From an uncultured Alphaproteobacteria bacterium (GTDB lineage: Bacteria; Pseudomonadota; Alphaproteobacteria; UBA7985): a DNA stretch of 51,617 bases. Shown here one piece after another: positions 31,052 to 38,379 of the stretch. The stretch spans positions 1 through 51,617 of the forward strand of contig CAJQLX010000028.1 in the NCBI GenBank assembly GCA_905479265.1, in the 5' to 3' direction. Within the stretch, counting starts at the first letter, position 1; every line of letters begins with the position of its first letter. The notes below the pieces were generated by a model. It worked only from the letters and a program-made list of their open reading frames with translations. It searched no databases and was not told where the DNA came from. Position numbers and translations under genes: made by a program.

Positions 31052-32404
31052 TCAAAGGACCAGTTTATCAACAATTTTATGCACTTTTGACCCCAAGGAG
31101 CCTTTAACCAGCCATATGTCCCCTGCGTGAACCAATGGCGCAAGTTTTGTGTATAGCGAGTCAGGCTCCATCGCTGAAAGCCCTCTTTGGTCACTATTCA
31201 CGGTTTTGAGCGTATGTTCGCCGAAGGAACCACTGACATGAACGCAATCAATAGGCATTTTTGCGATGATGGTGCCGATTGACTCGTGCTCGATCTCGGG
31301 GTCGTCCAACTCTAGCATGTCCCCAAGAACCGCAATTCTTCGACCTTGGGTAGGCGTGGCAACCAATAGCTTCAGTGCTGCTTCAACCGCAGCAGGGGAC
31401 GCATTGTAAGATTCGTCGATCAGTGTGGCTGTCCCACCGCCGAGCGCGGGGATTTCAGAACGCTTGCCTCGGCCCTTTAGCGGCTGGACATGGCTCATGG
31501 CGGCGAGAAAAGCCGTGCGGTCTGCGCCCTCGGGCAAGGCTGCGAGCAACGCAGCGGCTGAACCGCCCCACTGTTCGCCTGCGAGCGCTAGTTCCAAGGG
31601 CATGCCGTCGACGTCATAGCCAAACCCCGCGCCGCTCAAGCCTGTGAAAGCCACCCGGACGTCCGCCCCGGCGCCATAGCCAAAACGGCGCACGTCGGCG
31701 TCTTTGGCCAAGTCAGCCAGCAGGGCGCCGTAGTGATTATCCTGCGGTATGACGGCGACGCCACCGCGTGACAATCCTTCGAAAATTTCAGCCTTGGCCC
31801 GTGCGATTTGTTCGGTGTTTTCAAAGAACGCGCTGTGCGCCGCAGAAATCCATGTGATCAGCGCAGCATCCGGCTGGACTTGTTTGGTTAATTCGCGAAT
31901 TTCGCCGGGTGCGCTCATGCCCATTTCAATCACGGCGAATTCTGTTTCGCGTGGCATGCGGGCCAGTGTGAGTGGCACGCCGTAGTGATTGTTCAGGTTC
32001 CCTTGCGTCGCGTGCGTTTTACCCAAGGCGGCAAAGCCTGCGGCGGCGAGTTCCTTGGTGCCCGTCTTACCCACCGAGCCGGTGATCCCCAGCACAAAGC
32101 CCGATATTTCTGCGCGTCGGGCGACCCCGAGGGCTTCAAGCGCTTTGGTGGTGTCAGGAACCAGAACTTGAGTGGCCGACAGATCGGGCAATGCGCGCTC
32201 AACCAGCACCACACAGGCTCCGGCTTCCACGGCCTTGGGCGCGAAGTCGTGTGCGTCGTGATTGGGGCCACGCAAAGCGATGAACAGGTCGCCGGGTGTG
32301 ATGGTTCGGGTATCGATCGACACACCTTGAACGCTGGTTTCCGCCGCCCCGAACAGGGTTCCCCCTGTTGCTTCAGCAATGTCTTTGGCGGTCCAGAGGT
32401 TCAA
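31052..32404 (-). CDS. murF: UDP-N-acetylmuramoyl-tripeptide--D-alanyl-D-alanine ligase
   Basis: MurF adds D-Ala-D-Ala to the UDP-MurNAc-tripeptide. The 450-residue protein shows the P-loop ITGSVGKTGTKE, the central TQGNLNNHYGVPLTL and the C-terminal IDESYNASPAAVEAAL stretch, all MurF hallmarks. It starts with TTG at 32404, because the codon two before it is the in-frame murE stop (TGA 32410-32408), so no earlier start exists. GGGGAG lies about 10 nt upstream, inside murE. An ATG overlapping the murE stop (32411) is in another frame and cannot serve. murE and murF thus share a reading frame with one stop and one codon between them. Confidence 0.95.
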   Translation of the reverse strand: MNLWTAKDIAEATGGTLFGAAETSVQGVSIDTRTITPGDLFIALRGPNHDAHDFAPKAVEAGACVVLVERALPDLSATQVLVPDTTKALEALGVARRAEISGFVLGITGSVGKTGTKELAAAGFAALGKTHATQGNLNNHYGVPLTLARMPRETEFAVIEMGMSAPGEIRELTKQVQPDAALITWISAAHSAFFENTEQIARAKAEIFEGLSRGGVAVIPQDNHYGALLADLAKDADVRRFGYGAGADVRVAFTGLSGAGFGYDVDGMPLELALAGEQWGGSAAALLAALPEGADRTAFLAAMSHVQPLKGRGKRSEIPALGGGTATLIDESYNASPAAVEAALKLLVATPTQGRRIAVLGDMLELDDPEIEHESIGTIIAKMPIDCVHVSGSFGEHTLKTVNSDQRGLSAMEPDSLYTKLAPLVHAGDIWLVKGSLGSKVHKIVDKLVL

Positions 32405-32407
32405 AAA

Positions 32408-33883
32408 TCATACTCCCCAATACAGCTTTGCAGCGCGCCGCGCTTCTGCGGCGTCATCGAATGGAAGCGTTGTATCGCCGACAATCTGGCCCGTTTCGTG
32501 ACCCTTGCCGGCAATTATGAACAAATCTTCGGGTTGCATCGCTTGCAGCCCCTGTTCGATCGCTTGTTGGCGGTCGCCGATGTCAAGCGCGCCCGGACAG
32601 GCTGCGAGGATTGCTGCGCGGATCAGGGCAGGGTCTTCGGTCCGCGGATTGTCGTCTGTGACGATGGCAACATCAGCAAAGCGCGCCGCCGCTTGCCCCA
32701 TCAGCGCCCGCTTGCCCGGATCCCGATCCCCGCCCGCGCCAAAGGCTACGATCAACTGACCGCGACAGTGGGGACGAGCGGCCTGTAAGACCGTGGCGAG
32801 GGCGTCTGGTGTATGGGCGTAATCGACCAGCACGCGGCCGTGTGGGGCCGATGGATGACTGACCACGGGCATCATCCGCCCCGGCACGCCCAAGGCTTCG
32901 GCTGGCACATCGGCCAGTTTCCGTGCCAAGTCCTGCACGCCCCCAACATGGGCCAAGCCCAGAGCCACGGCGATGTTTTCCGCTTGGAACGTACCAAACA
33001 GCGGCAAATCCAACCTGTGGGTTTGGTGGCCGAGGCGATAGGTAAAGCCCAGCCCGCTGGGTGTTGGTTGGGCTGTATAGCCAAGATCGATATTCGGGGT
33101 GTCTACGTTGCCCAAGCGGAACAAATTCAGCCCCAAATCAGCCAATTCTTGCGCCTGCGGCGTGCGCGTATCGATGACGACGGCGCCTTGGGGCTTGAGC
33201 CGATCCGTAAACAGGCGCCGCTTGGCGTGCCAGTAGTCTTCCATCGTGGGGTGATAGTCCAGATGATCGCGACTGAGATTGGTAAAGGCGGCAGCGTCGA
33301 ATTGTAAGCCGTCGAGGCGGCCTTGATCCAAACCGTGGGACGAGGCCTCGACGATTGCGGTTCTTCGGCCCGACGCCGCTGCGGCCGCTAAGCCTTGGGC
33401 CAGGGCGATCTGGTCTGGACTGGTCAGGTACGGCATGTCGAACAAGCCGCTGGGTAACATACCAAGCGTCCCAACCGACACCGCACTTTCTTCGCCATAG
33501 AGAAGCCGCACGAAGTGGGCCACGGACGTTTTCCCGTTGGTTCCAGTCACAGCCTGTAAACAAGCGGGCAAAGGGCCAAAAAAGCGTGCCGCGATGACCG
33601 CGAGGGCGCGTGCGGTATCCTCCACGACCAGCGTGGGAACGCGATGGGGTGTGCGCGGTGAGCGCTGCACCAGTAAAGCACTGGCTTGCGCAGCCAGCGC
33701 TCGATCAATGAAATCATGACCGTCAACGCGGCTGCCCGGCAGAGCGGCAAACAGGGAACCAGCGGCGACGGCGCGGCTGTCGAAGGTCAACTGTTCAACG
33801 GGAACATCCCTCGCGCCCGTGAGCGTTGCCGCAATACCCGCTTCACCCAGCCAATCGATCAGCGTTGAAACATAAACCGTCAT
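32408..33883 (-). CDS. murE: UDP-N-acetylmuramoyl-L-alanyl-D-glutamate--2,6-diaminopimelate ligase
   Basis: MurE adds the third residue of the stem peptide. The 491-residue protein contains the P-loop VTGTNGKTSVAHF and the substrate-selecting motif DNPR at about 411-414, which in this family marks meso-diaminopimelate rather than lysine. Other MurE stretches are EASSHGLDQGRLDG and FTNLSRDHLDYHPTMEDY, with the lysine region following. It starts with ATG 14 nt after the ftsI stop. Its own stop lies one codon before the murF start in the same frame. Confidence 0.96.
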   Translation of the reverse strand: MTVYVSTLIDWLGEAGIAATLTGARDVPVEQLTFDSRAVAAGSLFAALPGSRVDGHDFIDRALAAQASALLVQRSPRTPHRVPTLVVEDTARALAVIAARFFGPLPACLQAVTGTNGKTSVAHFVRLLYGEESAVSVGTLGMLPSGLFDMPYLTSPDQIALAQGLAAAAASGRRTAIVEASSHGLDQGRLDGLQFDAAAFTNLSRDHLDYHPTMEDYWHAKRRLFTDRLKPQGAVVIDTRTPQAQELADLGLNLFRLGNVDTPNIDLGYTAQPTPSGLGFTYRLGHQTHRLDLPLFGTFQAENIAVALGLAHVGGVQDLARKLADVPAEALGVPGRMMPVVSHPSAPHGRVLVDYAHTPDALATVLQAARPHCRGQLIVAFGAGGDRDPGKRALMGQAAARFADVAIVTDDNPRTEDPALIRAAILAACPGALDIGDRQQAIEQGLQAMQPEDLFIIAGKGHETGQIVGDTTLPFDDAAEARRAAKLYWGV

Positions 33884-37294: not shown

Positions 37295-37692
<398 letters not shown>

Positions 37693-38379
37693 CTAGTCCT
37701 TGACCAAGGCTGGGGCGCTGTAAAGCTCTTTTAGTCGGGAGAAAGCAGCGTTGATCCGGGCGAGTTGCTTATCGGCCAAAGCCATCAGCTCGTCCGGCAG
37801 TCCCAGCGACGCCAATTGGTCCGGGTGATGCTCGCGAACCAGAAAGCGGTGCGCCTTCTTAATCTCGTCCCAGCTCGCATCCCGCTCAACGCCCAAAATG
37901 ACAAAGGGATCATCGTCCAAATCCTGCCGATAAATCAGCGCCAAGCGTTCAAATTCAGCGGCACTCCACCCGAAAATTTCAGCGACATAACCCAGAAAAT
38001 CCAACTCAGGCGGCGAGACTTCGCCATCGGCCGATGCGATATGGAACAGGCACGCCATGAGCCGTTCGAGCTCGGGACTGCGGGGGTCAAACAGCTTTGA
38101 TACGTTGCGTGCGTAGCCGTCGAAACCGGCAACGTCTTGGCGCGCAAGGTTAAACAGCATGGCGACGTTTTCGTGCTGATCCTCCGGAACGTGAAAGACA
38201 TCGCGAAAGGCGCGAACTTCGTCGCGCGTGACTTGGCCATCGGCTTTGGACAGCTTCGCACCGAGCGCGATGACGCCTATGGTAAAGGCCTCAGACTTGT
38301 CGCCCGTCGCACGCGCGCGCCCCAGCACGACATCAATGCCGAGCTCCAATGCACGTAATATGCGTTGCCAGAGGGTCAT
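37693..38379 (-). CDS. DjlA-like protein: TerB-like domain plus C-terminal J domain
   Basis: The protein combines a TerB-like helical domain (about 30-150: FTIGVIALGAKLSKADGQVT, FHIASADGEVSPPELDFL) with a C-terminal J domain (DPFVILGVERDASWDEIKKA ... HHPDQ). The HPD motif that activates DnaK-type Hsp70 chaperones is intact. This is the DjlA arrangement without the N-terminal membrane helix of E. coli DjlA, although the start (MTLWQRILRALELGIDVVLG) is moderately hydrophobic and amphipathic. I use ATG 38379 (228 residues); in-frame upstream ATGs at 38415 and 38421 exist. It is divergent from pccA and directly precedes rnpB. Confidence 0.85.
   Translation of the reverse strand: MTLWQRILRALELGIDVVLGRARATGDKSEAFTIGVIALGAKLSKADGQVTRDEVRAFRDVFHVPEDQHENVAMLFNLARQDVAGFDGYARNVSKLFDPRSPELERLMACLFHIASADGEVSPPELDFLGYVAEIFGWSAAEFERLALIYRQDLDDDPFVILGVERDASWDEIKKAHRFLVREHHPDQLASLGLPDELMALADKQLARINAAFSRLKELYSAPALVKD

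Follow-up and report, generated by a model that had tools for sequence, protein, structure and literature searches.

According to the available text of PMC10666635, gaps of −8 to +6 between neighbouring genes are indicative of translational coupling, and in E. coli a +2 gap cost three gene pairs only 5, 20 and 70% of their re-initiation. In a synthetic operon cited by the same work, a +3 gap gave coupling about tenfold below that of a 4-nt overlap. An RNA-unfolding model of coupling is set out in the accessible part of PMC12548453. Structure directly 3′ of the stop codon was negatively correlated with coupling in the available portion of PMC7518266, where a 'ribosome termination structure' is said to hinder re-initiation. 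MurE and MurF can also occur as a single chain: the Bordetella pertussis MurE-MurF is one active polypeptide of 945 residues, with a linker of ∼20 residues (PMC6420597, available excerpt).

We analysed the murE-murF junction of the window (the whole stretch of DNA under study, 51,617 nucleotides; Table 1). The minus strand over the junction reads CTG TAT TGG GGA GTA TGA TTT TTG AAC CTC TGG. This is as the initial annotation had described it: the two genes share one reading frame, parted by a single TGA and one codon, and murF begins with TTG. We infer that this TTG is the murF start, because TTT is the sole codon between it and the TGA. The ATG over the murE stop was likewise confirmed to be out of frame, opening a short ORF only. 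Translation with the TGA read as a residue gives a MurE-MurF of 943 residues, in agreement with the ∼940 anticipated for read-through; an uninterrupted MurE-MurF frame was not found at the window junction, where the TGA intervenes. Both products gave full-length NCBIfam matches above the cut-offs. The murE product scored 397.8 bits with TIGR01085 (cut-off 257.3) and 494.3 with NF001124 (cut-off 476), and the murF product 341.9 bits with TIGR01143 (cut-off 288.6). Two equivalog models, PRK14093 and PRK10773, also matched the murF product, both below their own cut-offs.

Table 1. Positions of the junction features and of the RNase P RNA in the window
Feature	Coordinates	Strand	Description	Source or score
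murE	32408..33883	−	491 aa; ATG start; last codons GTA TGA	ORF list and NCBIfam
murE stop TGA	32408..32410	−	next base T	
lone TTT codon, murE stop to murF start	32405..32407	−	within the T5 run 32407-32403	
murF	31052..32404	−	450 aa; TTG start at 32404-32402	ORF list and NCBIfam
ATG overlapping the murE stop	32409..32411	−	out of frame with murF; 12-codon ORF only	
GGGGAG, Shine-Dalgarno-like	32413..32418	−	last murE codons; 8 nt before TTG, 1 nt before the out-of-frame ATG	
stable predicted RNA fold	32308..32407	−	pairs the TTG start	z −3.02; 1 of 200 shuffles as good
RNase P RNA, class A	37295-37687	−		RF00010, 309.2 bits

In our view, murE and murF are very probably ordinary separate genes, with termination at the TGA followed by (re)initiation at the TTG. 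The shared frame would be an accident of spacing, since a change as small as one base puts the murE stop in the murF frame.

The junction was compared with those of relatives. The murF locus search covered 96 genomes including the window's own, 92 of which had a match, and the loci of the 30 best matches were kept; a second set held the best 80 of 248 confirmed loci on named contigs. From these 110 loci (L006-L115) we set aside 6 duplicates, together with 21 that lacked a murE adjoining murF by our criteria (short contigs or another layout). The remaining loci gave 83 distinct junctions, 79 unfused (window included) and 4 fused. For the 79 unfused junctions of the 30 best and the best 80 of 248 loci, the murE stop was in phase 2 relative to murF 73 times, with 5 junctions in phase 1 and a single one in phase 0. 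The phase 0 case was the window alone, none of the other 78 distinct unfused junctions in the loci kept being in frame; there is thus no sign of selection keeping the frame. By type, the 79 comprised 65 ATGA or GTGA overlaps, 3 TAATG and 11 others.

In all five congeners (G001-G005), murE and murF are separate and the murE stop is out of frame. The junctions of the close relatives show the ordinary separate genes that the initial annotation had named beforehand as the first part of what would refute its reading. In the nearest relatives, murF is 72% (G001) and 70% (G003) identical to that of the window. The G003 junction is a GTGA overlap, and that of the sister G001 is TGA-CT-GTG, a +2 gap, one base of spacing apart from the TGA-TTT-TTG of the window. 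In a Rhodobacteraceae genome (L079), we observed a 79-nt murE-murF gap with a repeated ATTATTCG-type sequence; its nearest relatives, L065 and L069, differ.

Next, the background of such junctions in the genome itself was considered. The own-genome sample consisted of 20 stretches (L120-L139) and the window, 451,617 bases in all, on contigs known from earlier matches and not drawn at random. With a home-made gene finder based on hexamers, we predicted 365 genes and 257 codirectional neighbours in it; as start codon we used whichever ATG, GTG or TTG lay closest to the stop, so individual cases may be wrong. The same frame continued across one stop (TAA, TAG or TGA) in 40 of the 257 neighbours. 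With the same method, we obtained 25 of 158 in the congener stretches, 14 of 64 in G038 and 6 of 74 in G061. Among the 130 close pairs of the own-genome sample (possible start ≤30 nt from the stop), a gap of −4 was the commonest (29) and +3 the second (13). The junction that we label ftsL-ftsI, presumably correctly as judged from gene order, lies next but one upstream in the window's cluster and is also in frame, across a TAA with a +6 gap. Given the 40 same-frame neighbours and the 13 gaps of +3, the arrangement in the window is ordinary for this genome; the in-frame state is unusual for the murE-murF pair only. As such junctions are common here, a shared frame across one stop is weak evidence for fusion or read-through.

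The +3 gap stood out in the congener stretches as well (L140-L152; 7 of 93 close pairs, some of which may be orthologues entered twice). Across the remaining gaps between 0 and +6, the mean count was 3.3 in the own genome, against 13 for +3, and 0.8 in the congener stretches, against 7; in the latter, gap +11 was as frequent as +3 (7 each). The form stop-NCC-ATG was seen in 11 of the 20 gaps of +3 pooled from the own genome and the congener stretches. Counts of +3 in two other Alphaproteobacteria were 0 of 17 (G038) and 2 of 15 (G061).

Two further features of the window may be recorded. The gene at 36075-35617 (minus strand), which is presumably ftsL-like as judged from gene order, has an apparent TTG start in a 4-nt TTGA overlap at 36075-36072, and a lone TAA, at a gap of +6, parts it from the following gene, whose frame it shares (35619-35608, minus strand). 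The plus-strand ORF 37297-37734 is mostly antisense to the RNase P RNA and is probably not a gene.

The Shine-Dalgarno-like GGGGAG of the murE end is suitably spaced from the murF TTG. Both of the nearest relatives retain it: in G001 it precedes the GTG start by 7 nt, and in G003 by 5 nt, likewise ahead of a GTG. Its predicted pairing with the anti-Shine-Dalgarno tail amounts to −8.0 kcal/mol in the window, −8.0 in G003 and −7.7 in G001, the tail being the textbook one, which may not be that of the host. No 16S rRNA gene turned up in the 61-contig assembly, which may be due to the search itself, since it also failed in 5 of 14 control genomes. In the three remaining congeners, murF is preceded by different purine-rich sites.

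The two genes lie on the same strand with a gap of +3, which falls inside the range indicative of coupling in the available text of PMC10666635. From this layout, re-initiation at the murF TTG appears plausible and ordinary, and it may be weak given the roughly tenfold loss at +3 in the synthetic operon. Under the reading of two ordinary genes, murE and murF would form a separate pair inside a gene cluster for cell wall and division. Translation of murE would end at the TGA with release of the protein, and murF would be begun at the TTG 3 nt on, through re-initiation by the terminating ribosome or through a fresh 30S subunit bound at the GGGGAG. In relatives the stop is out of frame, mostly in a 4-nt ATGA or GTGA overlap or, in G001, at a +2 gap, and a shift in spacing may have brought the two frames together here. 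The sequence, the identity of the genes, their spacing, the state in relatives and the background in the genome are observed directly, whereas initiation at the TTG, its mode (re-initiation or fresh initiation) and this direction of evolutionary change are what we infer.

The predicted fold directly after the stop (Table 1) was of similar strength in the matching stretch of G001 (z −2.40), with a different pairing. The remaining four congeners lacked a comparable fold (z −0.61 to 0.00), and a fold spanning the window junction itself was weaker than the shuffles (z +2.12). As a prediction, the post-stop fold could fit the RNA-unfolding model of coupling or could hinder re-initiation, going by the available parts of PMC12548453 and PMC7518266. 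It is no evidence for read-through.

True MurE-MurF fusions were found at 4 of the 83 distinct junctions (30 best and best 80 of 248 loci), in uncultured Alphaproteobacteria. They have one uninterrupted frame and are L017 (with its duplicate L046), L043, L062 (cut by the contig end) and L068. In a quick tree of the 83 murF proteins the fused loci formed one group (SH-aLRT 91) and the window's genus stood apart (100); this is a quick tree only, the tool having flagged the composition of the fused rows as unusual, and it has long branches. The murF part of the fused loci is 37-41% identical to the window murF. Together with the Bordetella pertussis protein (PMC6420597, available excerpt), these loci bear out the earlier remark that natural MurE-MurF fusions exist and are viable. 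With PRK11929 (cut-off 1023 bits), the read-through translation of the window scored 788.7, and three true fusions, at 880.9, 890.3 and 895.0, also fell below the cut-off. Nothing observed here links the window junction to the fused murE-murF genes.

Among the alternatives to two ordinary genes sharing a frame by accident, a single wrong base in the T5 run 32407-32403, arising in sequencing or assembly, with the true stop out of frame, is unlikely, though the least so. With one T fewer, the junction would take the phase of 73 of the 79 unfused junctions in the loci kept and the +2 gap of G001, and the source genome is a 61-contig draft. However, gaps of +3 are frequent here, and five-base runs are not known to be especially error-prone in short-read data, which counts against such an error. 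An error of this kind would in any case leave murE and murF separate, and so overlaps the best explanation.

Read-through, in which some ribosomes decode the TGA and produce the 943-residue MurE-MurF beside the separate enzymes, is very improbable. The frame is open through the murE TGA into murF, and the joint would fit, the spacing from GKGHE to LW being 32 positions against 28, 28, 28 and 29 in four natural fusions. The Bordetella pertussis MurE-MurF is active as one polypeptide (PMC6420597, available excerpt), and a stable predicted fold lies directly downstream of the murE stop. Against these points, the window alone is in frame among the 79 distinct unfused junctions of the 30 best and the best 80 of 248 loci, and TAA and TAG in-frame pairs are equally common in this genome. 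The post-stop fold is not one structure across congeners, and it is similarly strong in G001, where read-through would leave the murF frame. The stop context TGA-T is the commonest one, found at 49 of the 123 TGA stops of the own-genome sample. In the available text of PMC5289835, U at +4 is said to lower read-through in E. coli and C at +4 to make the leaky UGA context; the source's own data show the +4U effect chiefly for UAA, and this argument against read-through is weakened accordingly. No case of murE-murF read-through was present among the literature matches listed. We reject read-through as the main reading: the frame is unconserved, the stop context ordinary and no downstream structure shared. 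Nor did the suggested read-through control of the MurE:MurF ratio find support, with the congeners out of frame, the commonest TGA context at the stop and a Shine-Dalgarno-like site before the TTG.

Selenocysteine recoding of the UGA was rejected, no selB being above its cut-off (best match 189.4 bits against 242.25). In the same search 2 of 14 controls passed; the absence of selB is not proven, because the assembly is 96% complete. The prfB gene was over its cut-off in this genome.

Read-through, if true, would be a naturally occurring link from separate Mur ligases to fused ones. That low-level read-through of the UGA yields a functional MurE-MurF beside the separate enzymes, an intermediate state opened by the one-base shift in spacing, has an exceedingly small chance of being correct.

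That a fused murE-murF gene split only very recently, or that a fusion is now arising, is scarcely credible: a single stop alone parts the two frames and true fusions are present among the loci examined, but the 'very recent split or fusion point' of the initial annotation is rejected on the five unfused, out-of-frame congeners and on the placing of the four fused loci in one distant clade of the quick tree, and the window murF retains its own start codon and Shine-Dalgarno-like site.

The arrangement at this junction, read as two ordinary genes, has little significance by itself. With genes under programmed read-through, it shares the open frame after the UGA; it differs from them in its unconserved frame, ordinary stop context and lack of a structure common to the congeners. 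With the Bordetella pertussis fusion and PRK11929, it shares the same two enzymes in the same order and nearly the same length (943 residues on read-through against 945); the window differs in having an intervening stop, its own murF start and unfused congeners. From the translationally coupled short-spaced pairs in the available texts of PMC10666635, PMC6728339 and PMC12548453, it differs by an in-frame gap of +3, where a −4 overlap is usual, and by a TTG start. It resembles these pairs in being formed by codirectional neighbours with a short gap and a Shine-Dalgarno-like site within the last codons of the first gene.
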